A model generated the notes under the pieces. It made no database searches and was not told the DNA's origin. It saw only the letters and a list, made by a program, of their open reading frames with translations. A stretch of DNA of 64,000 nucleotides from the NCBI GenBank assembly GCA_030651575.1, contig JAUSFB010000027.1, forward strand, positions 62,001 to 126,000, read 5' to 3'. The translations under genes were made by a program, and so were the position numbers. Positions 13,485 to 62,470 of this stretch are shown one piece after another (positions within the stretch are counted from its first letter, which is position 1; every line of letters begins with the position of its first letter). Source of the DNA: Phaeospirillum sp. (GTDB taxonomy: Bacteria; Pseudomonadota; Alphaproteobacteria; Rhodospirillales; Magnetospirillaceae).

Positions 13485-14434
13485 GACGGTAATCCAGCGA
13501 GAGAACGGGTGAGCAGGATGCCTTCCAGCACCGCCAGCGCCTCGCGCCCGCCGCAAACGGCGGGAGCACCGCGCAAGGCGGCCAGGAAGGCCGACATTTC
13601 GGTGACGTAATCGTCGGCATAGCCGCCGGGAAGACTTTGGTCGATCACCGCCTCGCCATCCTGGCCCAGGCAGCGGAAGTGGCGACGGTCGAGGTCCACA
13701 TGAATCAGCCCTTCGGTCCCGGCCAGGGTAAAGCCGCGCAGACGGGGCCGGGTGACATAATCCACATGCACGGTGGAGGTGACACCGCCGGGATGCTCCA
13801 GGATGGCGTCGGCCACATCCTCGGAATCGAGGCCCAGCGTGCCGGAGCGGCGCGCCACGCAGGCGGCGGGGCGAAAGCCGCCCAACAGATGGGCGGCCAG
13901 ATCGAATTCATGGATATAGTCGAAGATCGCCCCGCCGGTGCGCGGATCGTTGGCGTAACCCTGCCGCCAATCCTGGCCGGGCCGCCAGTCGGGCAAGTAG
14001 AGGGCGGCGAGAAAGCGGCCCCACAGCATTTGCCCCAACCGACCCTCGGCGATGGCGTGGCGGGCCAGCAGGACGCAGGGGTGAACCCGCAGATTAAGGG
14101 CGGCGGCGATCACCAGACCGGCGCGGTCGGCCTGATCCAGCAATTCGGGCAGCCGGCCGACCCGATGGCCGATGGGCTTTTCCACCAGAGCGTGACGGCC
14201 GGCGGCGATGGCGGCGGCCAGATCATCCTCGTGACGGTCGGACGGGCTGGCGATCACCACCGCCTGGGCGGCCGCCAGGGCGGCGTCACGACTGTCGGTG
14301 ATGGCGGCGCCCTCGGCCTCGGCCAGGGCGCGGCGCTCCGGCGACGGATCGAAGCCGATCACCGCCTCCCCCAGGGCGAGGGCGTTACGGGCATGGCGCA
14401 GACCGATACTGCCAAGACCGAGAACCGCGATCAT
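13481..14434 (-). CDS. Gfo/Idh/MocA-family sugar oxidoreductase
   Basis: An NAD(P)-dependent oxidoreductase of 317 residues. The N-terminus MIAVLGLGSIGLRH is the Rossmann GxGxxG fingerprint. EKPIGHRV contains the family EKP motif, and the GGAIFDYIHEFDLAAHLLG segment supplies the catalytic His region of the C-terminal alpha/beta domain. The start ATG (14434) overlaps the pseC stop by ATGA, and its own stop overlaps the next gene the same way, so the three are translationally coupled. Its substrate is unknown; in flagellin or capsule sugar clusters such enzymes oxidise or reduce a nucleotide sugar or polyol. Confidence 0.85.
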   Translation of the reverse strand: MIAVLGLGSIGLRHARNALALGEAVIGFDPSPERRALAEAEGAAITDSRDAALAAAQAVVIASPSDRHEDDLAAAIAAGRHALVEKPIGHRVGRLPELLDQADRAGLVIAAALNLRVHPCVLLARHAIAEGRLGQMLWGRFLAALYLPDWRPGQDWRQGYANDPRTGGAIFDYIHEFDLAAHLLGGFRPAACVARRSGTLGLDSEDVADAILEHPGGVTSTVHVDYVTRPRLRGFTLAGTEGLIHVDLDRRHFRCLGQDGEAVIDQSLPGGYADDYVTEMSAFLAALRGAPAVCGGREALAVLEGILLTRSLAGLPS

Positions 14435-15630
14435 CCCAGGATCTCCCCGACCGCCTCGACGACGCGCCCGACCTCGTCCCCGGTCATGCCGACGAACAGC
14501 GGCAGGGTCAGGCAGCGGTCGTAATAGGCATCCGCGCCGGGCAGGTTCACATCCGGGTAGCGTTGGCGGTAATAGGGCTGGCGATGAACCGGCAGGTAGT
14601 GAACCTGGGTGAAGATTTCCCGCTGGGCCAGCGCCCGCATCAACTGGGCGCGGCTGACGTCTCCGGCGGCAAAGTCGATCAGCGCCACCTGGATATGCCA
14701 GGCCGGCTGGCAATGCCCGACCCGGTGAACCGGCGTCACCCGTGGAGCCAACGGGGCCAGGGCCGCGTCATAGGCGGCGACCAGCTCGGCCCGGCGGGCG
14801 ACGAAACGGTCCAGCTTGCCCAGCTGGCTGGCGCCCAGGGCGCAGGAAATATCGCTGGCCCGGTAGTTGAAACCGGGCGCGGCCATCTCGTAATACCAGG
14901 GATTGGGACAGCCATCGGAATCAAAGGCCTCCCCCGCCTGGATGAAGCGGGTGGGATCGCGCTCCATGCCATGGCTGCGCAGGGACCGCAGCCGGGCGGC
15001 AAGCCGGGCGTCACGGGTGGTGATCGCGCCGCCCTCGCCCATGGCCACCGTCTTGACCGGATGAAACGAAAAAACCGCCATATCCGACGCGCCGCAGGCC
15101 CCGGTGGGCTGCCAGCCGCCGGACAGCTCCTGCCAGCTGCCCAGGGCATGGCAGGAATCCTCGACGATGGCGAGGCCATGCTGTCGGGCGGTCTCGGCCA
15201 GCGCCGCCATATGGACGCACTGGCCGTTGAGGTGAACCGGAAACACCGCCCTGGGGCGCAAGCCGCCACAGCGGGTCAGAGCCTCTTCCAGGTGTTGCGG
15301 TCCCATCAGGCCGGTCGCCGGGTCCACATCGGCGAACACCACCTCGGCCCCCACATAGCGGGCGGCGTTGGCGGTGGCGAGGAAGGTGAGGCTGGGCACC
15401 ACCACGGCGTCGCCGGGGCCAAGGTCCAGCGCCAAGGCCGCCAGATGCAACGCGGCGGTGCCCGACGAACACACCACCGCCTGGGGGGCGGCGGCGACCC
15501 GGCCCAACGCCGCCTCGAAGGCGGTGACGGCCGGGCCGGTGGTCAGAGTGTCGGACTTCAGCGCCGCCACCACGGCGGCGATATCGTCATCATCGATGAC
15601 CTGACGTCCATAGGGCAGCGGACGAGTCAT
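14431..15630 (-). CDS. pseC: UDP-4-amino-4,6-dideoxy-N-acetyl-beta-L-altrosamine transaminase PseC
   Basis: A DegT/DnrJ/EryC1-family PLP aminotransferase of 399 residues and the second step of pseudaminic acid synthesis: it aminates the 4-keto sugar made by PseB. The PLP Lys lies in SFHPVKTVAMGEGGA, the form characteristic of PseC. Other family marks are SSGTAALHLA, FPVHLNGQ, the EDSCHALGS aspartate segment and GFNYRASDISCALG. It follows pseB by 21 bases and overlaps the oxidoreductase gene. The specific PseC call rests on the Lys motif together with the flanking pseB. Confidence 0.92.
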   Translation of the reverse strand: MTRPLPYGRQVIDDDDIAAVVAALKSDTLTTGPAVTAFEAALGRVAAAPQAVVCSSGTAALHLAALALDLGPGDAVVVPSLTFLATANAARYVGAEVVFADVDPATGLMGPQHLEEALTRCGGLRPRAVFPVHLNGQCVHMAALAETARQHGLAIVEDSCHALGSWQELSGGWQPTGACGASDMAVFSFHPVKTVAMGEGGAITTRDARLAARLRSLRSHGMERDPTRFIQAGEAFDSDGCPNPWYYEMAAPGFNYRASDISCALGASQLGKLDRFVARRAELVAAYDAALAPLAPRVTPVHRVGHCQPAWHIQVALIDFAAGDVSRAQLMRALAQREIFTQVHYLPVHRQPYYRQRYPDVNLPGADAYYDRCLTLPLFVGMTGDEVGRVVEAVGEILG

Positions 15631-15651
15631 ACCGGAGACCCTTTACCTCAA

Positions 15652-16689
15652 TCAAAGATCCAGATTGATCCGGCTGATCATGCCCAGCAATTCGGGCTCG
15701 GACAGCCACCACGTATTGGTGTTGCTGGCGTAGCGGAAATCTTCCGGTACCGGCTCGCCCTCCATGACGTCGTCCTTGGACCAGTAGGACAGCATGGGAT
15801 AGATCACATAACGGTCGGCCAGCTCGCGGGTGGTGCGGGCCTCCTCCTCGTTGACCATGACCTCGTGCAGCTTCTCGCCGGGACGGATGCCGACGATCTT
15901 TTGCGGCATATGCGGCGCCATGGTCGTGGCCAGATCGGTCATCTTCATGCTGGGAATCTTGGGGATGAAGATCTCGCCGCCCTTCATCATGCACATGGAG
16001 GACAGCACGAAATCGACGCCCTGCTGCAAGGTGATCCAGAACCGGGTCATGCGGTCGTCGGTAATGGGCAGGAACTCGGCCTTCTGGGCGATCAGGTCGT
16101 GGAAGAACGGAACCACCGACCCGCGCGAGCCGACCACGTTGCCGTAGCGCACCGCGCCGAACCGGGTCTGCGACTTGCCGGACAGATTATTGGCGGCGCA
16201 AAATACCTTCTCGGCGGCCAGCTTGGAGGCGCCATAGAGGTTGACCGGACTGACCGCCTTGTCGGTGGACAGGGCCATGACGGTCTCGACCCCGTTATCC
16301 AGGGCGGCGCGAACCACGTTCTCGGCCCCCCACACATTGGTGCGCAGGCATTCGGTCGGGTTGTACTCCGCCAGTGGGACGTGCTTCTGGGCGGCGGCGT
16401 GAATGATGATATCGACGCCGCGAAAGGCCATCTGCAACCGCTCCAGATCGCGGACATCGCCCAGGAAATAGCGGATGGCGGGATATTTGGAATCGGGGAA
16501 TTCCCGCATCATGTCGAAATGCTTCTGCTCGTCGCGCGACAGCACGATCAGGCGCCGGACGCAATCCAGCCCCAGGACGGTGCGGACGAATTGCTTGCCG
16601 AACGATCCGGTCCCGCCGGTAACCAGGATGGATTTTCCGGCCAGTCTCTCGCGGATGTCGTCGCGCCGAAAGGAGTTCAATAGCGTCAC
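15652..16689 (-). CDS. pseB: UDP-N-acetylglucosamine 4,6-dehydratase (inverting) PseB
   Basis: The first step of pseudaminic acid synthesis: C5-inverting dehydration of UDP-GlcNAc. The extended-SDR Rossmann motif is TGGTGSFGKQF. The catalytic set lies in STDKAVSPVNLYGASKLAAEK (Asp-Lys and Tyr-x3-Lys), as in the FlaA1/PseB enzymes. The C-terminal IFIPKIPSMKMTDLA and GIRPGEKLHEVMVNEEEARTT segments are diagnostic. It has 345 residues, normal for the family. It is transcribed leftward between the pseG/H fusion and pseC. Confidence 0.96.
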   Translation of the reverse strand: MTLLNSFRRDDIRERLAGKSILVTGGTGSFGKQFVRTVLGLDCVRRLIVLSRDEQKHFDMMREFPDSKYPAIRYFLGDVRDLERLQMAFRGVDIIIHAAAQKHVPLAEYNPTECLRTNVWGAENVVRAALDNGVETVMALSTDKAVSPVNLYGASKLAAEKVFCAANNLSGKSQTRFGAVRYGNVVGSRGSVVPFFHDLIAQKAEFLPITDDRMTRFWITLQQGVDFVLSSMCMMKGGEIFIPKIPSMKMTDLATTMAPHMPQKIVGIRPGEKLHEVMVNEEEARTTRELADRYVIYPMLSYWSKDDVMEGEPVPEDFRYASNTNTWWLSEPELLGMISRINLDL

Positions 16690-16741
16690 GATGGGGGTTC
16701 CTTCGAAGAGAGGCGATTGGCGTCAGCGTGCCGGGAAATGG

Positions 16742-18238
16742 TTAAGATATCGCTTCCGCCGACACCGGCGGGCCAGCGGAGCGGCGGTAATAGAGCACAC
16801 CATCGTCGGCGTCGCTCCGATCAAAGCCGCAAGCCTCGAAAATCCGCTGACTGGGACGGTTCTCGGCGCGGATCTCGGCGTAAAGGACTCCCGGCCCGCG
16901 CTCGCGCTCCAGCCGCAAGATGGCGGCGGACAGCAAAGCGCCGCCCAAACCGCCGCCCCGCGCGACGGGGGCCACCGAAATCGAGACCCGCCACTCGCCC
17001 GCGCAACAACTGTTGAACCGCACCGTGCCAAGCTTGACCCCTCCCCGCTCGGCGATCAGCAGCACGCACTCCGGATCGCCCAGCACCCGCTCCATCCAGG
17101 CGAAATGGTGGTCGCGGTCCACCTCGGCGGTGTCGAGCGAATTGGCCCGCGTGACCGGATCGTTGCGCCACCTCAGCAGATCCTCGCCATCCCCGGCCAC
17201 AGCCGGACGCAGCGTCAGGCCCATGAGACCGGCCAGCCGCCCGGCCCCGCCGCCGTCGCACAGCGCCATACCCCGCTCCGCCATCCCACGGCGCGCTTCG
17301 GCATCGCCGGCCAGGGCGGCAAGCTGTCGGGCGATGGAATCGGTGTCCAACTCCACCACCCGCGCCGCGCCGGCCTGTTCCAGCCCCGCCGCGACCATGC
17401 GCTGATTGTCGGCGATCACCAGCAACAGGGTCGGCAGCCCAAGGCAACAACGCTCCAGCGCCGAGGTGCCGGCCGCCCCCACCGCCAGATCGCAGGCGGC
17501 CATCAGGTCTGCCATATGGGCGAGGTCCACCACCACCTCGGCCGGCGGCCGCAACCGGCCGGCCTGGGCACGCACCTGCTCCAGGAAGGGGGCCGCGCCG
17601 CCCATCGCCACGGTGGCTGCAAGCCCCAGATCGGCCCGGTCCAAGGCGTCCAGCACGGTGGCGGTGGCGTTGACCGGATCGGTGCCGCCCAGCGATATCA
17701 AGAGCCTCGGAACGTCCCCCGAGCGCCGGGCCGGTCCCCTGGCTTTCGCCGCATGGGCGGCGGCGAAGTCGGGACGCAGCAGGGCGTGCCTCGCCCCGGC
17801 CAGGACCAGGGCCGAGGCCGGAATCAAACCGGCATAGTCCCGCCTTTGCCGCCCTACCGTCTGGTCCAGCAAGATGTCGCAGTCGTGACGGCGATCGACC
17901 AGGTCGTCGATCACCAGAATCCGGTCGGCCCAGGGCCGCAAGCCCCGCTCATAGGCCGCGTCCAGGCGGTAATGATCGATCACCGCCCAATCCGTCGGAG
18001 GCAGGGCGCGAAGGGCGGCGGGGTCGCCCCCGGCCCCCTCGGGCAGCACCGTCACCTCGACAGGAGCGGCGCGCAGGGCGGCGACGGTGTCGAGCGTCTC
18101 CTTCGTACAGGCGAAGCGGCAACGGCAGCCGTGCTCGGCGAGGGCCGCCGCCAGGGTCAGGCAGCGCATGACATGACCGATCCCCAGGCCGGGGGAGGCA
18201 TCGGCGCGAAACAATACGGAAAGGGCGGCGTTCCACAT
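16742..18238 (-). CDS. pseG: PseG-PseH fusion: sugar-nucleotide hydrolase plus N-acetyltransferase
   Basis: This 498-residue protein joins two pseudaminate enzymes. Residues 1 to about 335 are PseG, which removes UDP from UDP-2,4-diacetamido-trideoxy-altropyranose: FRADASPGLGIGHVMRCL holds the catalytic His (His22), and the GT-B-like C-lobe shows LLISLGGTDPVNAT and AVGAAGTSALERCCLGLPTL. Residues about 340-490 are a GNAT domain like PseH (LRPAVAGDGEDLLRWRND, then SISVAPVARGGGLGGALLSAAI and the acetyl-CoA loop), which would acetylate the 4-amino group. It is the first gene of the leftward set, with the divergent pseI about 100 bases away. Both domains appear complete. Confidence 0.93.
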   Translation of the reverse strand: MWNAALSVLFRADASPGLGIGHVMRCLTLAAALAEHGCRCRFACTKETLDTVAALRAAPVEVTVLPEGAGGDPAALRALPPTDWAVIDHYRLDAAYERGLRPWADRILVIDDLVDRRHDCDILLDQTVGRQRRDYAGLIPASALVLAGARHALLRPDFAAAHAAKARGPARRSGDVPRLLISLGGTDPVNATATVLDALDRADLGLAATVAMGGAAPFLEQVRAQAGRLRPPAEVVVDLAHMADLMAACDLAVGAAGTSALERCCLGLPTLLLVIADNQRMVAAGLEQAGAARVVELDTDSIARQLAALAGDAEARRGMAERGMALCDGGGAGRLAGLMGLTLRPAVAGDGEDLLRWRNDPVTRANSLDTAEVDRDHHFAWMERVLGDPECVLLIAERGGVKLGTVRFNSCCAGEWRVSISVAPVARGGGLGGALLSAAILRLERERGPGVLYAEIRAENRPSQRIFEACGFDRSDADDGVLYYRRSAGPPVSAEAIS

Positions 18239-18341
18239 GCCCCGATCATCACCGCAAATCCCGGCATGATCAATATCGGGATGGCCAATGGCAGGATGGA
18301 TAATGTTGTCGCCTTCCGGGTGGCGGGATTACACTGTCGCC

Positions 18342-19394
18342 ATGGATGATATCGTGATCGACGGCCGTTCCATCGGGCCGAACTCCCCCCCCTATGTGGT
18401 CGCCGAGATGTCGGGCAACCACAACGGCGACATCAACCGCGCCTTCGCGCTGCTGGAGGCGGCCAAGACCTCGGGGGCCGATGCGGTCAAGTTGCAGACC
18501 TACACCGCCGACACCATCACCATCGACCATGACGGGCCGGACTTCGTCATCGCGGGCGGGCCGTGGGGCGGGCGGACGCTGCACGACCTTTATCGCGAGG
18601 CTCATACCCCGTGGGAGTGGCACGCGCCGCTGTTCCAGCGCGCCCGGTCGCTGGGCCTGTCCATCTTCTCGTCGCCGTTCGACGGCTCCGCCGTGGACCT
18701 GCTGGAGGGATTGGGAGCGCCGGCTTACAAGATCGCCTCGTTCGAGCTGATCGACCTGCCGCTGGTGCGCCGGGTCGCCGCCACCGGCAAGCCGCTGATC
18801 ATGTCCACCGGCATGGCCCATCTGGGCGAGATCCAAGAGGCGGTGGCGGCGGCGCGGGGGGCCGGCTGCCGCGACCTGATCTTACTGCATTGCGTCTCGG
18901 GCTATCCCACCCGTCCCGAGGATTCCAACCTGCGCACCATTCCCCATCTGGCCCAGGCCTTCGGGGTCCAGACCGGCCTGTCCGATCATACGCTGGGGGT
19001 GGCGGTCTCGGTCGCCTCGGTGGCATTGGGCGCGACCTTCATCGAAAAGCACTTCACCTTGAAGCGCACCGATGGCGGCCCCGACGCCGCCTTCTCGCTG
19101 GAGCCCGACGAACTGAACGCGCTGGTGGAAGGAGTCCGCACGGCCTGGGCGGCGCTGGGTCGGGTGTCTTACGATCTGGCCCCGTCCGAGCGAGACAACC
19201 TTCAGTTCCGCCGCTCGCTTTACGTGGTGGCGGACATGGCGGCGGGCGAGGCGTTTACCGAGGCCAATCTTCGCTCGATCCGGCCCGGCCACGGCATGGC
19301 GCCAAAGCACCTGCCGGACATCATCGGCCGCCGCGCCACCCGCGCCGTGGCGCGCGGCACGCCGCTGTCATGGAATATGGTGACGGAGATTTAA
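18342..19394 (+). CDS. pseI: Pseudaminic acid synthase PseI
   Basis: Condenses 2,4-diacetamido-2,4,6-trideoxy-L-altrose with phosphoenolpyruvate to pseudaminic acid. It has a NeuB-type TIM barrel (VVAEMSGNHNGDINRAFALLEAAKTSGADAVKLQTYTADT, FSSPFDGSAVDLLEGLGAPAYKIASFELID, GLSDHTLGVAVSVASVALGATFIEKHFTL). A C-terminal SAF/antifreeze-like domain follows (LRSIRPGHGMAPKHLPDIIGRRA). The ATG at 18342 gives 350 residues, matching the family; an upstream extension adds a non-homologous stretch. It is divergent from the pseG/H gene. A poor TTGTCG-17-TTACAC pair at 18306-18334 is the best promoter I see. Confidence 0.95.
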   Translation: MDDIVIDGRSIGPNSPPYVVAEMSGNHNGDINRAFALLEAAKTSGADAVKLQTYTADTITIDHDGPDFVIAGGPWGGRTLHDLYREAHTPWEWHAPLFQRARSLGLSIFSSPFDGSAVDLLEGLGAPAYKIASFELIDLPLVRRVAATGKPLIMSTGMAHLGEIQEAVAAARGAGCRDLILLHCVSGYPTRPEDSNLRTIPHLAQAFGVQTGLSDHTLGVAVSVASVALGATFIEKHFTLKRTDGGPDAAFSLEPDELNALVEGVRTAWAALGRVSYDLAPSERDNLQFRRSLYVVADMAAGEAFTEANLRSIRPGHGMAPKHLPDIIGRRATRAVARGTPLSWNMVTEI

Positions 19395-27469: not shown

Positions 27470-29218
27470 ATGGATCTTGAACAGGAACTGAGCCAGGGTC
27501 TCGAATGCCATCGGATGGGAAAGCTGGGCGACGCGGTCCGACACTATCGGACCGTGCTGACCCATGACCCCCGGAATGTGGACGCCCTCAATCTGATGAG
27601 CGTCCTGGCGCTGACCTCCGGCGATGGACCGACGGCGGCCACGCTGGCCACCACCGCCGTCGAGGAGCAGCCCGACTGGTTCCTGTCCTACATCAATCTG
27701 GGCAACGCCCTGCAATCCCTGGGGCGGGTTCCCGAGGCGATCGATTGCTTCCAGAAGGCGATCACCTTGAACCCGCAATCGGCCGAGGCCTATATCAATC
27801 TGTCGGGGGCCTTGAATTTCGCCGGACAGCACGACATGGCGACCCATATGGCGGTTCAGGCTATCCTGATCAATCCCGAGATGGCCGAGGCCCATGTGAA
27901 TTTCGGCAATGCCCTGCTGTCGCTGGATAGTCCCGGCGAGGCGGTGGAGGCCTATTTTAACGCGACCCGCCTCGACCCCGGCAACGGGCTGGCGTGGTTC
28001 AACATGGGCGTCGCCTATGCCTCCCTGAGCGCCTACGACGCGGCGATCAGCAATTTCCGCCGCGCCATCGCCCTGGCCGACAGTGCGGAGCGCCAGTACA
28101 ATCTGGGCAACGCCCTTTACGCCGTCCTACGCCTGGACGAGGCCGAGGAAGCCTTCACCCAGGCCCTCGTCCATGACCCCGGAAACCTGGACGCCGCCGT
28201 CAATCTGTCGGCGGTGCAACGGGACCGGGGCCGCCTGACCGAGGCCGAGGCCACCTTGCGCCAAGCCCTGGATCACGCTCCCGACGAACCCGACCTGCAC
28301 TGGAATCTGGCCCTGGTTCTGCTGACCCGGGGCGACTATGTCCAAGGATGGCGGGAATACGAGTGGCGCTGGCGGACGGCTCACTTTAGCCGCTTCATCC
28401 GCGACTTTCCCTCGACGCCGTGGCGGGGCGAGTCTCTCGAAGGCCTCTCCCTGCTGGTCCATACCGAACAGGGCTTTGGCGATGCGCTGGAGATGTGCCG
28501 CTATGTCCCCCTGCTGGTCGAGCGCGCCGCCTCGGTGACGCTGGAGTGCCGCAAGGGGTTGGGACGGCTGTTCCGGACATTGCACCCCCGGCTGACGGTG
28601 ATCGAGGAGGGCATAGCCCCTCTTCCCGCCTGCGACCGCCATGTGGCGCTGATGTCGCTGCCCCATCTGCTTCAAACGACGCTGGAGACGATTCCGGCCA
28701 CCATCCCCTATCTCCGCGTTCCCAAGGCCGTCGCCGACTTCTCGGACGTGGCGGGACAAGACGGACTCAAGATCGGGGTGGTCTGGAGCGGCAGCGCCAC
28801 CCGACGCGACAATCAGTCACGATCCTTCGAACCGCACGACTTGGCCGGACTGCCCGGTTGCCGGTTGTTCTCGCTTCAAAAGGGAGATCCGGCGGCGAAG
28901 GCCTCCGACCTGTTCGATCACGGCCGCATGGTGGATCTTGGCCCCCGGCTGTCGGACTTCGCCGATAGCGCGGCTGCCATCGCCGCCCTTGATCTGGTGA
29001 TCACCGCCGATACGGCGGTGGCGCATCTGGCGGGGGCGCTGGGCAAGCCGGTCTGGATCATCCTGGCCAACCCGACCGGCGCCTTCCTGTGGATGACCGG
29101 ACGGTCGGACAGCCCGTGGTATCCCACCGCCCGACTGTTCCGACAGGCCCAGCCGGGCGATTGGAGCGGCGTGATGGCCGAATTGCGTCAGGCCGTGGCG
29201 GGGTTCGCCTTGTTGTAG
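27470..29218 (+). CDS. TPR protein with GT9-like glycosyltransferase domain
   Basis: This 582-residue protein has about eight TPRs in residues 1-300 (for example SYINLGNALQSLGRVPEAIDCFQKAITLNPQSAEAYINLSGAL). A C-terminal half resembling heptosyltransferase-type GT-B folds follows (LKIGVVWSGSATRRDNQSRSFE and ITADTAVAHLAGALGKPVWIIL). The trimmed GT-B lobe lacks an obvious N-terminal acceptor lobe apart from LLVHTEQGFGDALEMCRYVPLLVERA. Such proteins are frequent beside flagellar and polysaccharide genes, but their substrates are unknown. It follows flgL by seven bases, so it belongs to the flagellar operon. Its 3' end overlaps flbT by 31 bases in convergent orientation. Confidence 0.8.
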   Translation: MDLEQELSQGLECHRMGKLGDAVRHYRTVLTHDPRNVDALNLMSVLALTSGDGPTAATLATTAVEEQPDWFLSYINLGNALQSLGRVPEAIDCFQKAITLNPQSAEAYINLSGALNFAGQHDMATHMAVQAILINPEMAEAHVNFGNALLSLDSPGEAVEAYFNATRLDPGNGLAWFNMGVAYASLSAYDAAISNFRRAIALADSAERQYNLGNALYAVLRLDEAEEAFTQALVHDPGNLDAAVNLSAVQRDRGRLTEAEATLRQALDHAPDEPDLHWNLALVLLTRGDYVQGWREYEWRWRTAHFSRFIRDFPSTPWRGESLEGLSLLVHTEQGFGDALEMCRYVPLLVERAASVTLECRKGLGRLFRTLHPRLTVIEEGIAPLPACDRHVALMSLPHLLQTTLETIPATIPYLRVPKAVADFSDVAGQDGLKIGVVWSGSATRRDNQSRSFEPHDLAGLPGCRLFSLQKGDPAAKASDLFDHGRMVDLGPRLSDFADSAAAIAALDLVITADTAVAHLAGALGKPVWIILANPTGAFLWMTGRSDSPWYPTARLFRQAQPGDWSGVMAELRQAVAGFALL

Positions 29219-53251: not shown

Positions 53252-53305
53252 ATTTAACCGACGGCCGACATCGAAGCGGCCGGAATCAGCGCGGAGGACG
53301 ATGAC

Positions 53306-54952
53306 ATGCTGACTTTCCTTCCTGGAGCCCATCAAGAGCTCAAGCCTCGCATCACCGTGATCGGTGTGGGCGGCGCCGGCGGCAACGCCGTCAACAACAT
53401 GATCCTGTCTCGGCTCGAAGGCGTCGAATTCATCGTCGCCAACACCGACTCCCAGTCGCTGGGCCAAAGCCGGACCGAACGCCGGATCCAGCTGGGCAAT
53501 CAGGTCACGCAGGGCCTGGGCGCCGGGTCGCGCCCCGATGTGGGCCGCGCCGCCGCCGAGGAAAGCCTGGAAGAAATCCTGGCCCAGATCCACGGCGCCA
53601 ACATGGTATTCATCACCGCCGGCATGGGCGGCGGCACCGGTTCGGGCGCAGCGCCCGTCATCGCCAGGGCCGCGCGCGAGCAGGGCATCCTGACCGTCGG
53701 CGTGGTGACCAAACCGTTCCACTTCGAAGGCGCGCGCCGCATGCGCACCGCCGAGGGCGCCATCGAGGAGCTGCAACAGTTCGTCGATACCCTGATCATC
53801 ATCCCGAACCAGAATCTGTTCCGGGTCGCCACCGAACGCACCACCTTCGCCGACGCCTTCAAAATGGCCGACGACGTGCTGTATTCCGGCGTACGCGGCG
53901 TCACCGATCTGATGATCATGCCCGGCCTGATCAATCTGGATTTCGCCGATATCCGCACCGTCATGAGCGAAATGGGCAAGGCGATGATGGGAACCGGCGA
54001 GGCCGAGGGCGACAAGCGCGCCATCGACGCCGCCGAAGCCGCCATCTCCAACCCGCTGCTGGACGATACCTCCATGAAGGGGGCCAAGGGCGTCCTGATC
54101 AACATCACCGGCGGCGCCGACATGGCCCTGTTCGAGGTCGATGAAGCCGCCAACCGCATTCGCGACGAGGTCGATCCCGAGGCCAACATCATCTTCGGCT
54201 CGACCTTCGACGAGAAGCTGAACGGCAAGATGCGGGTTTCCGTGGTCGCCACCGGCATCGCCGGCGAAGCCGCCGCCCAGCCCAAACCCACCGTGATCTC
54301 GCTGGTCGGCACCCAGCAGCCGGCGCCGCAGCCGACCGCCGTCGCCCCGCAGACCCGCCCGACGGCCCCGCCGGCGGCTGCCGCCACGGTGGTGTCCCAG
54401 CCGCATTTCCGCCCCCAGGCGACGATGACGCCGCCGCCGGTCGCCCAGCCCCAGGTCCAGCAGCACGCCGCCTCGGCATCGGCCGCCCATGGCCCGCACC
54501 ACCATCCGCATGTCCGGTCGCAGGCGGCCATGGCCGCCGCCGCGCGTGAGCCCGAGTTGGATATCCGTCAGCCCGAACCGCAGATGCGGGCCGAGCCCCA
54601 GATGCGGCCCGAGCCGTCCCTGGGACGCCAGCCGTCCTATCTCGACTCCAATGAACACGATATGGACGCCATGCAAAAGGCGCTGTCCGGCATCAGCGGG
54701 ACCAACCCCGACATGTCGCCCCAGCACCAGCCCCAGCATCAGCCCCAACCCCAGGTCGAGACCCGCCGAAGCGGCAGCCTGCTGGATCGTCTGGTCAATC
54801 GTGGCCGTCAGGCCGTCTCCTCGGCCCCCGCCACCCGCACACCCGAGCCGCAGATGCCGCAGCCGCGCATGGAGGCCCGCCGCGAGACGACCGCGCCGCG
54901 CTCCGGCGAGGATCTTGATATTCCGGCCTTCCTCCGCCGTCAGGCGAACTAG
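53306..54952 (+). CDS. ftsZ: Cell division protein FtsZ
   Basis: The tubulin-like GTPase that forms the Z ring. The nucleotide loop [13 protein letters not shown], the tubulin signature [15 protein letters not shown] and the T7 loop [11 protein letters not shown] are intact. After the GTPase domain (about residue 325) comes a ~200-residue linker rich in Pro, Gln, His and Ala with short repeats ([26 protein letters not shown]). The C-terminal peptide [13 protein letters not shown] for FtsA binding closes it. The 548 residues are long but usual for alphaproteobacteria with extended linkers. GGAGG lies eight bases before the ATG. It is the last dcw gene. Confidence 0.97.
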
Positions 54953-55199: not shown

Positions 55200-56585
55200 A
55201 TGCTACGGGAAAAGCCCCGCCCAGTTAATGAATTAGATGCAGCAATTCTCAGGGCGTTTTCAGAAAAAGACATATCTGTTCTTAATATTTTACGAACTAA
55301 ATTATCACAATCACTTATAAGCTTTATGGAACAGTTGCTACAGAGCGAAAGAGATGGCGCTTGTAATTGGGAAAAACTTGCCGATGAACTGCTGGCAGCC
55401 GGGCTGACGGCCTCGGCGCTATCCGCCCTGGATATGGTCATCGACAACGAAAAAGACCTCTATGCCCGGGCCATCTCCTATGACCGCATGGGAGAGGTCG
55501 AGCATAAGCTGAATATGGAATGGGCTGCCGCCGCGGATCATCGGGTGGCGAATCGCCTCCGTGGCATTCCAAACCCCCAGGCGCCCTATCTCGAACTGGA
55601 TGACGGCGAGCTGACGGTCCTGAGCGCCCATAACAATCCCGAGATCTTTGAACGCATAATGGCGTCGTTGCCGAACTCGCCGCTGCTGAACGACCCGATG
55701 CGGGACCCCACCCTCTCCAAGCGCGCCGCCATGGAGGTGCCCAAGCCGGGCCATGGACCGGCGACGGATGATTGCTCATTCTTCGTCCTGGACCTGGATG
55801 ATCGCCCGATCCTTCAAGTCGAGGCGGACGTCACCGGCGACCGCTTTCTCGGATGCCGCCAGACAGCAATTCTCCTGACCAAGGTCGCCCCCGACCACCC
55901 CCAAATCCCGCAGGCGGAAAACCTTGCCGTGCGCCAGCTCATCGTCGCCCTGGAATGGTCAGGCTGCAAGAACGCCGTGTTCGAGATGTATCCGCCCGAC
56001 ACCCTTCCGCCCATCTTGCACAAATGGGTCACCAATTCGGGAATCCGAACCATCCCCTTGACCGCGGCATGGATCGACTTATCCCTCGACGCCGAGGAAA
56101 TCGAGCGACGGTATCGCAGCGCCCACCGCCAAAGCCTGCGCTGGGGCAGAAACAACATGCGGGTCGCCAAGACCTCGACCCCGGATCCGGTCCTGCTGGG
56201 GTATTACCAGCAGGTTCACGACGAACTCCACCGCATCCCGGGGCTCCCGGTCGAATCGGTCATACGATACCTCGACGAAGGACGCCTCAATCTGTACATC
56301 GGATTTTACGAGGACAAGCCCGTGGTTGCGCTGCTGTCGTCCCGACACGGCACCACCACCTACTATGCGGCCAGTGCAAAAATCCCCATCGGCAACAAAC
56401 CGCTGGGCCATGTGGTCTTGCATCAGGCAATCATGGATGCCAAGGCGGAAGGCCAAAAGCGCTTTGATTTTGGCGGGCTGAACACGGACAAGTACTTCAG
56501 TGAAAAGCTACGCGGCATCGCGCTATACAAAAGCGGCTTCGCGACTCACACTCAGAACTACGTTCACTACCTCGTTAAACTGTGA
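55200..56585 (+). CDS. FemAB/GNAT-like acyltransferase with flagellin locus
   Basis: This 461-residue protein has a C-terminal acyltransferase domain (about 290-455) of the FemAB/BioF2-like GNAT group: IERRYRSAHRQSLRWGRNNMRVAKTSTPDP, then LNLYIGFYEDKPVVALLSSRHGTTTYYAASAKIPIGNKPLGHVVLHQAIMDAKAEGQKRFDFGGL. Residues 1-110 are a separate helical domain (TPR-like, LADELLAAGLTASALSALDMVI) encoded by AT-richer DNA. Relatives transfer aminoacyl or acetyl groups to amino sugars or peptides. Lying just upstream of flagellin and near two glycosyltransferases, it may acylate the flagellin sugar; that is inference. Expression is separate from ftsZ, since a strong terminator intervenes. Confidence 0.72.
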   Translation: MLREKPRPVNELDAAILRAFSEKDISVLNILRTKLSQSLISFMEQLLQSERDGACNWEKLADELLAAGLTASALSALDMVIDNEKDLYARAISYDRMGEVEHKLNMEWAAAADHRVANRLRGIPNPQAPYLELDDGELTVLSAHNNPEIFERIMASLPNSPLLNDPMRDPTLSKRAAMEVPKPGHGPATDDCSFFVLDLDDRPILQVEADVTGDRFLGCRQTAILLTKVAPDHPQIPQAENLAVRQLIVALEWSGCKNAVFEMYPPDTLPPILHKWVTNSGIRTIPLTAAWIDLSLDAEEIERRYRSAHRQSLRWGRNNMRVAKTSTPDPVLLGYYQQVHDELHRIPGLPVESVIRYLDEGRLNLYIGFYEDKPVVALLSSRHGTTTYYAASAKIPIGNKPLGHVVLHQAIMDAKAEGQKRFDFGGLNTDKYFSEKLRGIALYKSGFATHTQNYVHYLVKL

Positions 56586-56733
56586 AAGCCTGAATTCAGA
56601 TTTTGAAGTCGCGGACGTCACCCCGTGTCCAGAGCCCCGCCGCCGCCCCTGAACCGCCTGTAAATGAAGCTTGCCGCCCCCTGGCGATTCGTATAGAATG
56701 CGAAGCTATAGGGTGAAATTAACCATCCTTGGC

Positions 56734-56749
56734 TGGCCTTTGGTCCGCT
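56734..56749 (+). promoter_or_regulatory. Possible sigma-54 promoter of flagellin
   Basis: TGGCC at 56734-56738 and TCCGCT at 56744-56749. The GG and GC doublets are exactly ten bases apart, about 65 bases before the flagellin ATG. The -24 half is good and the -12 half is weaker than consensus TTGC. Confidence 0.45.
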
Positions 56750-56812
56750 AGAAGTGGCGCAACCTCAGAGGCTTGCGAGTGTCAAACGGCTACATCCAGA
56801 AAGGATACCGCC

Positions 56813-57925
56813 ATGGCTGAAGTAGTTCTATCTTCCGCAATCCGCAGCAATCTGCTCTCCTTGCAGGCGACCGGCAGCCTTGTCGATCGCACCAATGCTC
56901 GTCTGAACACGCGCTTGAAGGTCAGCGAGGCCACCGACGACGCCGTCGCTTACTTCCAGAACAAGTCCTTGAAGGATCGCGCCGGTGATTTGGCGAGTCG
57001 CAAGAACGACATCGATCAGGGCATCAGCTCGCTGAAGACCGCCGTCAACGGTTTGTCCTCGGTTGAGTCGCTGCTGGGCCAGATGAAGGGTCTTATTCTG
57101 TCCGCCAAGTCGGCCAGCGCCTCGGATCGCGCCTCTCTCGGCACGCAGCTTTCGTCGCTCGGCGCTCAATTGAACTACCTCGCGAACGATACGTCGTATC
57201 AGGGCCTGAACCTGATCAATGCGACCACCGCGAACATCAAGGTGCAGTTCTCCGAAAAGACCGCCGCGGTTCTCCAGGTCGACGGCGTTGATGTCCGCAT
57301 CTCCTCCGCCCTCATGATGACCGCCAACGGCGCTTACGGCGCGACTCTGATCGCCGACGGCCACCAGTTGATCTCCATCGGCGGCAGCCAGGTCACCGGC
57401 ACCACCTCCTGCACGATCCCTGGCGTCACCATCGCCGGCATCACCTTCACCACGATCACCGTGGCCACCACCGTGTACGGCGGCGTCACCACCGGCACCA
57501 CCGTCGGCAATATCAACGGCGTCGGCTTCACCATGGGCGTCATCACCGCCGCCACCACCGTGTACGGCGGCGTCACCACCGGCATCACCACCTCCGGCAC
57601 CACGTCCGGCATGGTCGGGTTCTCGGATGTCGGCACGAACGTGTCGATCTTCGACGGCTACATCGCGATGTTCGACTCGGGCATCTCCTCGGTCCGGACC
57701 AGCACCAAGACCATCGGCGCATCGGTGGCCCTGCTGCAAAGCCGTGCCGACTTCACCAAGACCTACATCAATACCCTGCAGAGCGGCGGCGACAAGCTCG
57801 TCAATGCCGATCTGAACGAAGAAGGCGCCAACCTGGTGTCCCTGCAGACCAGTCAGCAGTTGGGCATTCAGGCTCTGTCCTTTGCCAACCGGTCGGAGCA
57901 GGGCATCCTGTCCCTCTTCCGGTAA
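56813..57925 (+). CDS. Flagellin
   Basis: The filament subunit, 370 residues. The N-terminal D0/D1 helices are MAEVVLSSAIRSNLLSLQATGSLVDRTNARLNTRLKVSEATDDAVAYFQNKSLKDRA. The C-terminal D1/D0 is NEEGANLVSLQTSQQLGIQALSFANRSEQGILSLFR. The middle (about 195-270) is a Thr/Gly/Val-rich segment with a direct repeat of ATTVYGGVTTG and many Thr, a plausible outward-facing and O-glycosylated region. I chose the ATG at 56813 (AAAGGA ten bases upstream). It is followed by a terminator, flaF and two glycosyltransferase genes, and preceded by an acyltransferase. Regulation by FlbT/FlaF is expected from the family. Confidence 0.96.
   Translation: MAEVVLSSAIRSNLLSLQATGSLVDRTNARLNTRLKVSEATDDAVAYFQNKSLKDRAGDLASRKNDIDQGISSLKTAVNGLSSVESLLGQMKGLILSAKSASASDRASLGTQLSSLGAQLNYLANDTSYQGLNLINATTANIKVQFSEKTAAVLQVDGVDVRISSALMMTANGAYGATLIADGHQLISIGGSQVTGTTSCTIPGVTIAGITFTTITVATTVYGGVTTGTTVGNINGVGFTMGVITAATTVYGGVTTGITTSGTTSGMVGFSDVGTNVSIFDGYIAMFDSGISSVRTSTKTIGASVALLQSRADFTKTYINTLQSGGDKLVNADLNEEGANLVSLQTSQQLGIQALSFANRSEQGILSLFR
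57464..57584 (+). repeat. Direct repeat within the flagellin gene
   Basis: An identical 34-base block occurs at 57464-57497 and 57551-57584, offset by 87 bases (29 codons), encoding ATTVYGGVTTG twice. Exact identity suggests a recent or conversion-maintained duplication. Confidence 0.85.
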
Positions 57926-57956
57926 TCTTCCGGCGGGTTAAACAGCTACTGAACGA

Positions 57957-57986
57957 GGCGGGGGGTGTAATGCTCCCCGCCTTTTT
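57957..57986 (+). terminator. Rho-independent terminator after flagellin
   Basis: GGCGGGG (57957-57963) pairs with CCCCGCC (57975-57981), followed by TTTTT. It would make flagellin mainly monocistronic, with flaF lower. Confidence 0.85.
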
Positions 57987-58087
57987 CATGCGTTCCCGAC
58001 TCGGCTCCGGCGGGTCGAGGCAACGCAATCTTAACTAAACAACGTCCACAATTGACCATCGCGTTGTGATGTTGGAGGTTCTGATAA

Positions 58088-58516
58088 ATGGCCTATCCGA
58101 ATGCCGAACAAGGCAAATATAGGTCTGTTTCGGCGGGGGGGAACCCACGCGAGACAGAGGCCCGGGCGTTGACGGAGACCGCACGGCGCATGTCGGTGGC
58201 CCAATCCGAATCTGTCGATATCGAGGAATTCCTGGCTGCGATTCGCCTGAATTGGCGGCTATGGACGATCTTCCAGGCTGATCTGTCGACGGAGGAAAGT
58301 GAAGTTCCCCAAGACATCCGCCTGAACGTGCTGGCCCTGAGCAACTTTGTCGATGCACGGTCGGTTGAAATCATCTCCACGCACAACCGGGGGCTGGCCT
58401 CGGCCCTGATTTCAATAAACCGAAATCTGGCCAGCGGCCTGTTCACGGCGGTTCCGTCCGCGACCGATAGCCCGCAGACATCCGAGCCGGTCACCTCCGC
58501 CAACGAAACTATCTAA
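58088..58516 (+). CDS. flaF: Flagellar biosynthesis regulator FlaF
   Basis: FlaF is the alphaproteobacterial partner of FlbT. In Caulobacter it acts as a flagellin secretion chaperone and is needed for flagellin translation. The 142 residues contain the conserved core LTETARRMSVAQSE, FLAAIRLNWRLWTIFQADL and LNVLALSNFVDARSVEIISTHNRGLASALISINRNLASGL. GGAGG lies eight to nine bases before the ATG. It is between flagellin and the FlmG-like gene. Confidence 0.92.
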   Translation: MAYPNAEQGKYRSVSAGGNPRETEARALTETARRMSVAQSESVDIEEFLAAIRLNWRLWTIFQADLSTEESEVPQDIRLNVLALSNFVDARSVEIISTHNRGLASALISINRNLASGLFTAVPSATDSPQTSEPVTSANETI

Positions 58517-58556
58517 CCGATCAAAGCTGAAACTCAGACGTCAAGGGGGATAGGGC

Positions 58557-60461
58557 GTGAGCGATTCCATGCAGGGCCGTACGGCCGATACTCTTAGAAA
58601 GATAGAAGATCTTTTGTTGAGAGGCCTGGACCAAGAGGCGTTAGAATTAGCGGAATCTGCGCTGGGCGATGCCGAGTCCCGGCCCAGGATTCTCTGCGCC
58701 ATGGCGGCTCTTCATTACCGTGCCGGCGCGCTGGGTTATGCCATCCAATTGCTGGCGTCGCTCCTGGATCAGCCGGGCTGTCCCGTGGATGTTCCCGAAG
58801 TTCTCGCCGTCCTCTACAGTCAGGCGGGTTGCGTGTCCGACGCGCTCTACTACGCCAAACTCTCGACCACCCAGGGCGCCGACAGGTCCGTCCAGCGCCT
58901 GTTCGGCTCGGACTTTCCCCCATTCAACGAAGCCTTCGCGCAGGCCCGCCCCAAGCCGCTCCTGGGCAACGGCATGATGGCGCTGGAGGCCGGCAATCTG
59001 GATCGGGCGCGTTTCCTGGTCGAACAGCACCTCACCTTGCTTCCCGACGATGTTGAAGCCCTCGATATCTACGCCAAGATCATGATCCGGTCAGGCAAGA
59101 TCAACGAGGCCATCGGGTTGCTGCGGACGGTCTCCACCCTGGCCGGCCCCTCGGCGACGCTGCTTAGCCGCCTGGCGAACTGCCTGATCTGGTCGGGTCA
59201 ATTCATCGAAGGCCTCGCCTGCCATCACGAAGCCATCGCCCGCGCCCCGGATTCCCTGACGATCCTGGGCTCCGCGGTCAACGACCTCGGATACTTCGGC
59301 AAGGCCGAGGCGGAGGCTTCGGGGATCATTCAGATCTGGCAGGATGAACTTACCAAGGCCTCCCCGAAAAAGGTCCGTCCGGCTCCGAAATATACCGGAG
59401 CCACACCGATCCGGCTCTGCTACCTCTGCACCGCGCTGGACAGCGACGAATTGAAGTCCATGGTCGGCAGCATTGCCCAGGCGCACGACCGCTCGCGGTT
59501 CAGCGTGGTCGCTTTTGGCTGGGGCGAAATGGACCACCCGTCCAACCAGTGGGCTCGTGGCGCATTCGATCAGTGGCGCGACATCTCCTCTTTGGATGTC
59601 ACGACCCTGGGCGCGGTGATCCGTGGCGAGGGCATCCACATCCTGATCGACGCCGATGGCCGGTTGGCCCCGGAAATGCGCACCTTGTTCGTGCGCAATT
59701 CCGCACCGCTACAGCTGGCCTGGCTGAACCCGGAGATCGCCTCCAAGGTTCCCGGCGCCTATCTGATGGCGGTGCCCGGCACGGGCGAGGCCGCCGCCGA
59801 CGAATTGGCGCTGCCCGCCGGTCGCTACTTCATGGGCAATTCCGCCGGAAGTCCTCCGATAAAGACCCCGGCTCCGGTCGAAAGCGCCCGCAACATCACC
59901 TTCGGAGCGGAACTGATCCGACCCGAGTTGAACCCGCGGCTGGCCATGGTTTGGGGACGCATCTTGCAGTCGGTGCCCAATTCGGTGCTGCTGCTGCGCG
60001 ACAACGGCATCTTCGCCGAATCCACCAATGTGGATGCCCTGATATCCATGTTCGGCAATGCCGGCGTCGCCCACCGCATCGAAGTGATCCGTGACATCGA
60101 CAGGGCCGGCTTCGCCGCCAGCATCGACATCGCCCTGATGCCGTTCCCGGCCGGCAACATCCTGACCTACGCCGAATTTCTCCGAAACGGGGTGCCCGTG
60201 GTGACGACAAGTTCGTGCCCCGCCGGTGCCGATATGGCGGCCTTCCTCTCTGCCGCCGGCCTGGAAAAATCCCTTGTCAACGCGGATACCGCAGCCTATG
60301 CGGCCTCGGCAATCGCACTGGCGCTGGACGTTCCGGCCCTGGTGGCGTTACGCGACCGTCTGCCGGAATGTGTCGCCGGCGTCCCAGCCTTCTCAGCCAA
60401 AGGCTTTGCCAAAATGTTCGAAGATGCCGTCGTCGCCGCACTAACGCAGTCGCCGACATGA
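58557..60461 (+). CDS. FlmG-like TPR/OGT-type flagellin glycosyltransferase
   Basis: A 634-residue protein with about six TPRs in residues 1-250 (for example MMALEAGNLDRARFLVEQHLTLLPDDVEALDIYAKIMIRSGKINEAI). Its C-terminal half is like the SPINDLY/O-GlcNAc transferase catalytic region: IRLCYLCTALDSDELKSMVGSI, ITFGAELIRPELNPRLAMVWGRILQSVPNSVLLLRDN and SIDIALMPFPAGNILTYAEFLRNGVPVVT. This matches the layout of Caulobacter FlmG, which binds flagellin through TPRs and attaches pseudaminic acid. Orthology is inferred from domains and from the flaF/flagellin/pse context. Its stop overlaps the maf start. Confidence 0.82.
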   Translation: MSDSMQGRTADTLRKIEDLLLRGLDQEALELAESALGDAESRPRILCAMAALHYRAGALGYAIQLLASLLDQPGCPVDVPEVLAVLYSQAGCVSDALYYAKLSTTQGADRSVQRLFGSDFPPFNEAFAQARPKPLLGNGMMALEAGNLDRARFLVEQHLTLLPDDVEALDIYAKIMIRSGKINEAIGLLRTVSTLAGPSATLLSRLANCLIWSGQFIEGLACHHEAIARAPDSLTILGSAVNDLGYFGKAEAEASGIIQIWQDELTKASPKKVRPAPKYTGATPIRLCYLCTALDSDELKSMVGSIAQAHDRSRFSVVAFGWGEMDHPSNQWARGAFDQWRDISSLDVTTLGAVIRGEGIHILIDADGRLAPEMRTLFVRNSAPLQLAWLNPEIASKVPGAYLMAVPGTGEAAADELALPAGRYFMGNSAGSPPIKTPAPVESARNITFGAELIRPELNPRLAMVWGRILQSVPNSVLLLRDNGIFAESTNVDALISMFGNAGVAHRIEVIRDIDRAGFAASIDIALMPFPAGNILTYAEFLRNGVPVVTTSSCPAGADMAAFLSAAGLEKSLVNADTAAYAASAIALALDVPALVALRDRLPECVAGVPAFSAKGFAKMFEDAVVAALTQSPT

Positions 60462-62470
60462 AAGTCGCTAAAAAGACGCTGCTTCAGCGGAATATGGAAT
60501 TGTTCCGGACGTATTTCCCGGACATCCACGCCCGTATTTCCGCCATCACCCATCCCGTAACCTCGATTATCGAGGAAGACGGGGTACCGGTGGATATCGA
60601 CCTGGGGGTGGGCCGCCTCTATAAAACAGACGGGCGGGCCTTGGCCCTCAAGCAGGCCGAGGATTTCATCAAGACGCCGCGACAGGTGGGTTACGAGGTT
60701 AAAAACGCCATGTCGGGCGACAGCCCAGTGTCGGAGCGCCTGTTCAACAGCGTGATCGCCAGCGCCAAAAGGCATAAGGCGACGGTGGAATCCGGCCCGC
60801 CGGTTGGGCGCAGCGGGTTCCTCTTTGTGTTCGGCCTGGGCCTTGGACACCACGTCCCGCTTCTGGTCAAGAACCTTGACGTCGACTGGGTCGTGATCGT
60901 TGAAACCATCGACGAATTCGTATTGCAGTCCCTGTCGACCATCGACTGGACCGCCATCGTCAAGACCTGCACGAGCAACAAGACCAAGCTGTCACTGATC
61001 ATTGGCGAAATGCCGGGCGAATTGACTGCCCAAATTACAGGCATGGTCGCCATCAATGGCGAATTGGCCCTGGATGGATCGTACTACTACCGACACTACC
61101 CATCGTGGGCGCTGGACCAGGCCTTTGAAAACGTCGTCAACAATATTCCGCTGAGAATGATTCAGCGTGGGTATTATGAAGACGAACGCAAGATGATCAG
61201 AAACGCAATTACAAACCTTCAAAAGTTTAATTGCTATATGCTGGCGGGCTCGTTCAAACCTTTGATCGTAGCCCCGACCTTCATGGTCACCTCCGGCCCA
61301 TCCGTCGACAACGATATCGAATACATCAAGCAATGGCGCGATAAGGTTATCGTCTTCTCCGGGGGATCATCGCTTCAGGTGCTGCTGGCCCATGGCATCA
61401 TTCCGGACTATCACGTCGAGTTGGAAAACGCGGTTCAGGTCTGGGATTTCTGCCAGCACATTTTGGAACTGAACCAGGACAAGTTCCCCGATGGCAAGTT
61501 CACCGGCATCAAGCTGATCGCCTCGGTGACGCTCAACCCTCGGGTTACCCCCCTGTTCGACGAGACGTATTACTTTTTCCGCGACAGCGTCAGTTCCTCC
61601 ATCTGCTTTGGCAACGACATCCCGCTCATGACGGCGATCGGCCCCAACGTGGCGAACACCATCGTGGCGGTGGGGGCGCGCATCGGCTTTCGCCATATCT
61701 ATATGTTCGGTATGGATTGTGGCTGGCGCGATGGCGAGGACCACCACTCTCGCGATACGGCCTATTACACCTCCCAGGAATTCAAGACCGGCAGGGCTGA
61801 AGGCACCCACACCCATCCCGGCAACTTTGGCGGCACCATCCACTCAACGATGGTTCTGTCCTGGACCCGGGACATGCTTGAAGACAAGGTCCAGAAATTC
61901 CACCTGAACGCCTTCAATTGCAGCGACGGCGCCCTGATCAGGGGGGCGGTGCCCAAGCTGTCCGAGACGATCGACTTATCCAAGACGGAAATCGACCGGG
62001 AGAAGATCTTTGATCGGGTCCGGGCGGATTCGCTCCATTTCGAGCTTGGCTCGTATCTGGCGGATTACAACTTTGACGACGTGATCGCTCAGATCGATCT
62101 GTACGCGCGGCTGATCGATAAGTTGTGTGTGAAGGCCATGAAAAAAGGCAGGGACTTCCACTGGATGCTCCGGGAAATCACCAACTTCCTGAACAACGCG
62201 ACCGCGGGCGGATACGCCAAGGCCTACCCGATATTTCAAGGCCCGACCCTGGGTATGGCCAAATGCGCCTGCGTCTTCCTCAACCGCGTCGAAGACGAGA
62301 CCAATCGCCGCCTGATGTACGAGGATTTCGTCACCGAATATCGGCAGATCCACAAAGAAATAACGAAAGAAATGCGAGACATCTTCACCGACGCCAAGGA
62401 CTGGATCCATGGCGGTCCCGAGCCAAGCTGGACGTCCGGCCTACAAACTATGCCGGGCTACACCTTCTAG
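60458..62470 (+). CDS. maf: Motility-associated factor glycosyltransferase Maf
   Basis: A 670-residue Maf-family enzyme (DUF115/MAF_flag10), which puts nonulosonic acids on flagellin before export. The N-terminal domain includes FLFVFGLGLGHHVPLLVKNLDVDWVVIVE. The central DUF115 catalytic domain shows PTFMVTSGPSVDNDIEYIKQWRDKVIVFSGGSSLQVLLAHGIIPDYHVELEN and ARIGFRHIYMFGMDCGWRDGEDHHSRDTAYY. A C-terminal helical domain follows. The Magnetospirillum magneticum homologue is needed for flagellum formation. The ATG at 60458 overlaps the upstream stop, so it is translationally coupled to the FlmG-like gene. Confidence 0.93.
   Translation: MKVAKKTLLQRNMELFRTYFPDIHARISAITHPVTSIIEEDGVPVDIDLGVGRLYKTDGRALALKQAEDFIKTPRQVGYEVKNAMSGDSPVSERLFNSVIASAKRHKATVESGPPVGRSGFLFVFGLGLGHHVPLLVKNLDVDWVVIVETIDEFVLQSLSTIDWTAIVKTCTSNKTKLSLIIGEMPGELTAQITGMVAINGELALDGSYYYRHYPSWALDQAFENVVNNIPLRMIQRGYYEDERKMIRNAITNLQKFNCYMLAGSFKPLIVAPTFMVTSGPSVDNDIEYIKQWRDKVIVFSGGSSLQVLLAHGIIPDYHVELENAVQVWDFCQHILELNQDKFPDGKFTGIKLIASVTLNPRVTPLFDETYYFFRDSVSSSICFGNDIPLMTAIGPNVANTIVAVGARIGFRHIYMFGMDCGWRDGEDHHSRDTAYYTSQEFKTGRAEGTHTHPGNFGGTIHSTMVLSWTRDMLEDKVQKFHLNAFNCSDGALIRGAVPKLSETIDLSKTEIDREKIFDRVRADSLHFELGSYLADYNFDDVIAQIDLYARLIDKLCVKAMKKGRDFHWMLREITNFLNNATAGGYAKAYPIFQGPTLGMAKCACVFLNRVEDETNRRLMYEDFVTEYRQIHKEITKEMRDIFTDAKDWIHGGPEPSWTSGLQTMPGYTF

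Follow-up and report, generated by a model that had tools for sequence, protein, structure and literature searches.

A flagellin O-sialylation system composed of Maf-2 and GlfM was reportedly described by Unay, Kint and Viollier in 2024, in which GlfM is said to form a small bundle of four helices that carries an invariant Asp. According to another source, Maf-1 uses its own tetratricopeptide repeat (TPR) domain for flagellin, and Maf-2 needs the co-encoded GlfM for a ternary complex (PMC13317340, citing Unay 2024). FlmG of Caulobacter, a protein of 596 residues, combines N-terminal TPRs with a GT-B type domain at its C-terminus; Maf is described as missing from C. crescentus (PMC7591256). More generally, acceptor choice by cytoplasmic O-glycosylation enzymes has been called poorly understood (PMC7591256). 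Here, we analyzed a 64,000-nucleotide stretch of Phaeospirillum sp. (contig JAUSFB010000027.1, positions 62,001–126,000; hereafter, the window), in which a flagellin operon encodes Maf together with a protein of TPRs and a glycosyltransferase family 41 (GT41)-like part, denoted as the partner. Our preferred explanation, with a probability of roughly two in three, is that Maf is the sole transferase of the pair and that the partner, a catalytically dead GT41 relative, determines its acceptor specificity.

Active-site residues and selection in the partner

The operon comprises, in order, genes for a FemAB-like protein, flagellin, FlaF, the partner and Maf. A first-pass annotation had given this order, which agrees with the open reading frames and Pfam matches; it had also proposed the coupling of the last two genes by ATGA, which is present as an overlap at 60458–60461, and the identity of the last gene as maf, which its Pfam domains confirm (Table 1). 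The partner possesses an N-terminal TPR domain (TPR_19, E = 5.4e-9) and matches Pfam Glyco_transf_41 with 32.1 bits (cut-off 25). Among solved structures, it is most similar to 5djs (E = 8.7e-30) and SPINDLY (E = 1.9e-21).

Seventy-seven partner proteins whose genes lie no more than 3.5 kb from maf (28 belonging to the window's family, and 49 to its order and class) were aligned with 14 GT41 proteins of the family as controls, which were chosen by search score and not by residues. L244, a canonical-looking GT41 on the other strand with three of the four residues kept, was excluded. The four sites compared were those of SPINDLY H495, N661 and K665, and the invariant Thr of the phosphate motif. 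The His, Asn, Lys and Thr are all present in 14 of 14 controls, whereas the partners retain the His in 1 of 77, the Asn in 0 of 76, the Lys in 1 of 76, and the Thr in 6 of 76. None of the four residues is left in 69 of the 77 partners, and a single one is left in 8, including that of the window, in which Asp297, Leu453 and Glu457 replace the His, Asn and Lys, respectively. As stated in two reports, the K842M mutation of O-GlcNAc transferase (OGT) abolishes glycosylation and H558A lowers it (PMC4840301); SPINDLY is inactivated by mutation of K665 or of H495, and its residues N661, K665 and T748 touch the phosphates (PMC9715652). Because the GT41 residues are lost and the published K842M and K665 mutants are inactive, we infer that the partner is no longer an enzyme. 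In a GT41 tree, the partners are set apart from the controls (98/94), where one loss and two losses are indistinguishable as the tree has no outgroup.

Despite these losses, the partner is under purifying selection. The ratios of nonsynonymous to synonymous substitution rates (dN/dS) in four close pairs are 0.21–0.40 for the TPR part and 0.20–0.38 for the GT41 part, as compared with 0.14–0.23 for the MptE-like part of Maf, and are rough since dS is high (0.65–1.8). Lys101 in the TPR part is present in all 76 partner proteins covering the site, and position 98 is Tyr or Phe in the same number (76/76). No control has Lys at 101, where the controls are loosely aligned in the TPR part. Furthermore, Thr350 is found in 74 of 77 partners versus 2 of 14 controls.

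The same data bear on the possibility that transferase activity persists in the GT41-like protein, with a different donor and different catalytic residues, and that it attaches a further sugar to flagellin or extends the Maf glycan. The purifying selection extends to its GT41 part, structural residues of the family are kept (Asp524 in 76/76 and Pro547 in 75/77, with one gap, as well as Trp389 and Trp466), and losing the residues for uridine or guanosine diphosphate sugars does not alone exclude another donor. However, the residues at the sites of the His, Asn, Lys and Thr are scattered, with no new fixed set in their place, and conservation across the GT41 part averages 1.41 bits in the partners versus 2.57 in the controls, a comparison that is indicative only, as the controls are fewer and more alike than the partners. 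We consider this explanation unlikely.

Pairing of Maf and the partner across genomes

Of the 55 genomes of the window's family, 30 have a Maf match, as do 107 of 317 of its order, 26 of 385 sampled from its class, and 21 of 398 from its phylum. The surroundings of 101 Mafs were examined (39 from the family, 42 from the order and 20 from the class), covering 40 of the 77 Maf-bearing genomes that the order has beyond the family and, with 20 regions, 19 of the 25 class genomes; 18 of the 19 phylum genomes were also covered. Outside the family, the best-scoring Maf per genome was mostly taken, which may favour flagellar Mafs. Regions with the same genes were dropped (L003, L006 and L007, which equal L002, L005 and L004, and L034, which equals A_G003), as were L069 and L088, which have no Maf, and L086, in which the contig ends inside the partner gene.

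For the 82 Mafs with a flagellin or flaF gene in the region, the partner gene is adjacent on the same strand in 61, within 4 kb in 77, and in the region in 79. The 19 Mafs with neither gene in the region include 7 with an adjacent partner, four of which lie on a short stretch or contig (L072, L195, L212 and L217), and 12 without any. The partner gene is located 5′ of maf in 55 and 3′ of maf in 15 of the 70 adjacent cases, two of which (L205 and L250) failed a stricter count. A GT41-like partner was found in none of 18 Maf regions outside Alphaproteobacteria and, with L072 set aside, beside none of the nine family Mafs that are non-flagellar. Among the 25 family genomes without Maf, an orthologue-grade partner occurs in one (G028, E = 1.6e-111), where the contig ends inside the gene. 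The pairing of Maf and the partner is beyond chance, old and specific. In the Maf tree, seven same-genus partnerless Mafs fall into one clade (SH-aLRT, a likelihood-ratio branch support, of 100), and the other eight are scattered, such that the partner label needs nine changes. The clade consists of paralogous Mafs (L078, L079 and L081–L085). For six of them, the region contains neither flagellin nor flaF; at L082, a flagellin-like gene lies at a distance of 1.8 kb.

Alternatively, the partner may have no part in acceptor choice and act after glycosylation, taking flagellin over from Maf and delivering it to FlaF or the export gate. TPR proteins often serve as chaperones, and in the window, as in many relatives, flaF immediately precedes the partner gene. 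However, no such protein was found next to flagellin genes in genomes that lack Maf or in any of the 18 Maf regions outside the class, so the partner tracks Maf rather than flagellin. We consider the hand-over unlikely, somewhat more so than a surviving transferase activity.

Several further genes were encountered in these surveys. Outside the class, a 235-aa TPR-only protein is encoded between maf and flagellin (L268:9928–10635); it was considered as a partner without the GT41 part and is merely noted here, as it matches only profile positions after Lys101. Also outside the class, L267 has a TPR protein near Maf, and L251:5416–9153 encodes a 1245-aa Maf with two Maf_flag10_N stretches. Plasmid matches, mostly from Azospirillum, were dropped: the two annotated plasmid regions examined list no flagellin or Maf, L269 is without annotation, and the window Maf has no plasmid match.

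Relationship to FlmG

The FlmG gene of Caulobacter vibrioides was located through its flagellin neighbours (L111:5919–7709); it lies next to flaF and the fljK cluster and encodes 596 aa, as published. FlmG aligns over its full length with the TPR and GT9-like protein at 27470–29218 of the window (26% of 592 columns, E = 2e-26), whereas its alignment with the partner is confined to an 82-column TPR piece (E = 0.011). In Pfam, FlmG matches GT9 below the threshold (E = 0.16) and does not match GT41, and a GT41-domain profile gave no match at E up to 10 to 37 FlmG-like open reading frames of Caulobacterales loci. The "FlmG-like" label that the first-pass annotation had attached to the partner is accordingly rejected, since the transferase domain has no match to FlmG and the gene is GT41-like. 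Nor do the data favour its suggestion of two different active flagellin transferases, against which the loss of catalytic residues on alignment had been named as one kind of counter-evidence; such a loss is what we found in the OGT-like protein. We make no claim of a TPR module common to the partner and the TPR-GT9 proteins, because the N-terminal profile matches TPRs generally.

The FlmG class is large, with matches in 54 of the 55 genomes of the family and 12 in the window's own genome, in which the best match to FlmG is C71:219498–220889 and not 27470–29218. The latter thus belongs to the FlmG class, by sequence similarity, and need not be the FlmG orthologue. Its relatives, with 48–54% identity, occur some kb 5′ of flagellin in L086 and L095–L101.

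A FlmG-type second nonulosonic acid transferase working alongside Maf would fit the TPR and GT-B outline of the partner and the coupling of the two genes. It is very improbable in view of the domain mismatch and the lost GT41 residues, and Maf matches were found in 0 of 20 Caulobacterales genomes with FlmG-type loci, while the same search matches 30 of 55 genomes in the window's family. A chance neighbourhood or hitchhiking with no joint function, in favour of which bacterial gene order is often kept among close relatives, can practically be set aside, as the pairing spans the family, order and class samples in both gene orders, and the nine non-flagellar Mafs of the family mentioned above have no partner.

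The acceptor, Maf and the sugar donor

The operon lies directly 3′ of a cell-division cluster, with ftsA-ftsZ immediately upstream (52013–54952). Its flagellin is presumed to be the acceptor of the operon's glycosylation, and the Thr-rich middle is likely the acceptor stretch. A 77-nt direct repeat with 81% identity (57426–57502 and 57513–57589) is found inside this middle. The flagellins of close relatives (L089, L091, L092 and L094) have 297–300 aa and do not possess the Thr-rich middle. The genome of the window contains one Maf_flag10_N gene and two flagellin-like genes; the second of these, encoding 274 aa, adjoins recA and is distant from flaF (L069:6780–7604, G000:C68). The FemAB-like enzyme may add an acyl group, as the first-pass annotation had suggested; genes of this type recur close to flagellin or flaF in four relatives (L086, L094, L095 and L096).

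Across 100 Mafs, 38 columns are conserved to at least 93%, and the window Maf keeps the consensus in all of them; a Pfam search found no TPR match in it. It aligns over residues 8–524 (E = 3.5e-67) with PDB entry 5mu5, which we take to be the structure of the Magnetospirillum magneticum Maf. The Maf of G039, a genome of the same genus as that of the window, covers all 666 chain residues of 5mu5 with two visible differences. Because its Maf matches 5mu5 nearly throughout, G039 is considered to be AMB-1 or a near relative. A published account mentions one public structure of a Maf and gives M. magneticum as its source (PMC11339370). In the AMB-1-type locus L104, the partner is present as in the window and is encoded directly 3′ of maf, but the gene order is reversed and a short TPR and GT9 gene follows. 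Such short TPR and GT9-like genes lie 3′ of maf and the partner gene in AMB-1-type loci (e.g., L104:11914–12936), and GT9-like genes also flank maf in L207, L208, L212 and L214.

Since the window carries PseB, PseC, PseG and PseI, all over the NCBIfam cut-offs, the donor is probably pseudaminic acid. PseG (16742–18238) carries a fused GNAT part whose resemblance to PseH stays below the cut-off. A CTP_transf_3 domain fused to a class-III aminotransferase is encoded inside the pse cluster (11448–13556), and this fusion might stand in for PseF.

Table 1. Coordinates of the features discussed, numbered from the first letter of the window
Feature	Position	Strand	Remarks
Pseudaminic acid genes	14431..19394		PseC, PseB (-), PseG with PseH-like part (-), PseI (+); NCBIfam
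TPR and GT9-like protein, FlmG class	27470..29218	+	3′ of flgL
FemAB/GNAT-like acyltransferase gene	55200..56585	+	461 aa; Acetyltransf_6 21.7 bits (cut-off 22), FemAB weak (Pfam)
Flagellin	56813..57925	+	370 aa; Flagellin_N 1.2e-11, Flagellin_C 2.8e-7, both over cut-off
Thr-rich flagellin middle	57323..57667	+	aa 171–285, 23% Thr
flaF	58088..58516	+	Pfam FlaF 1.1e-23
TPR and catalytically degenerate GT41-like protein (proposed Maf partner, pseudo-OGT)	58557..60461	+	634 aa, GTG start
Lys101 codon	58857..58859	+	invariant in the partner family (76/76)
Asp297 codon	59445..59447	+	in place of the GT41 His (SPINDLY H495, human OGT H558)
Glu457 codon	59925..59927	+	in place of the GT41 Lys (SPINDLY K665, human OGT K842)
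maf	60458..62470	+	670 aa; Maf_flag10_N 1.6e-52, MptE-like 1.7e-30

Proposed role of the partner

In our preferred explanation, Maf would modify Ser/Thr residues of flagellin in the cytoplasm with a nonulosonic acid, probably pseudaminic acid, for which the pse genes lie about 40 kb upstream. The partner would consist of TPRs and a GT41 fold without the residues that grip the nucleotide sugar. Its TPR part, with the invariant Lys101, may hold flagellin or Maf, and the dead GT41 part may serve as a scaffold, by which the partner, Maf and flagellin could be united in one complex. The simplest reading is that the TPR function would sit in trans, on a dead GT41 protein. This proposal draws on homology, linkage, residue loss and purifying selection, and the binding, the complex, the sugar and the inactivity of the partner are inferred from sequence data. 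A TPR protein serving Maf was the third option raised in the first-pass annotation, and it is the best supported of them.

Several observations weigh against this explanation. In E. coli, Mafs from other lineages reportedly function with no partner of this kind (PMC7591256). For five of the 82 flagellin-linked Mafs, a genuine partner is missing within 4 kb: it is absent from the region at L082, L193 and L250, and farther off at L211 and L227. The gene adjacent to the L250 Maf encodes 611 aa and is matched only by the full-length partner profile. Conversely, L234, L236 and L249 have the partner and Maf, and no flagellin or flaF was found in these regions. The partner of the window retains one of the four key residues, Thr537, and the kept GT41 fold, with its structural residues, means that the partner may still bind a donor or sugar. 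The high dS values given above belong here as well, and the AlphaFold model of the window partner alone has a mean predicted local distance difference test score of 43.8, too poor to use.

If the explanation is correct, a Maf partner can be named for much of a bacterial class, magnetotactic model strains included, and Lys101 is a residue to mutate. An O-GlcNAc-transferase fold would have been turned into a non-enzyme, and such genes should not be annotated as second glycosyltransferases.

Comparison with known systems

The partner resembles FlmG of Caulobacter in its N-terminal TPRs, its C-terminal transferase-like part and its flagellar locus (PMC7591256). In contrast, the C-terminal part of FlmG is GT9-like and works without Maf, whereas that of the partner is GT41-like and goes with Maf. 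The GT41 enzymes, including O-GlcNAc transferase, SPINDLY and 5djs, share with the partner the combination of TPRs and a GT41 fold, as judged by sequence. The partner differs from them by the loss of the active-site His, Asn, Lys and Thr, of which the window protein retains the Thr. A functional precedent may be seen in GtfA/GtfB of streptococcal adhesins, in which an active transferase is joined by a dead transferase-like subunit that binds the acceptor; the families are unrelated to Maf and the partner.

A literature search that covered few subscription papers revealed no account of an OGT-like Maf partner. A close counterpart is the Maf-2/GlfM system, which likewise pairs a Maf with a co-encoded factor, as do the overlapping genes of the window and the 61 of 82 adjacent same-strand pairs. 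The two factors differ in that the partner, at 634 aa, is a TPR and GT41-like protein, which sets it apart from GlfM as the latter is reportedly built. On the best reading, the partner would be functionally like GlfM and of another fold. We are inclined, somewhat less firmly than for the window itself, to extend this to the whole family, so far without a name: catalytically dead OGT relatives would then be a standing acceptor-specificity subunit of the alphaproteobacterial flagellar Maf and the missing component of the AMB-1 Maf, adding a third way of recognition to the TPR in cis of Maf-1 and GlfM in trans of Maf-2.

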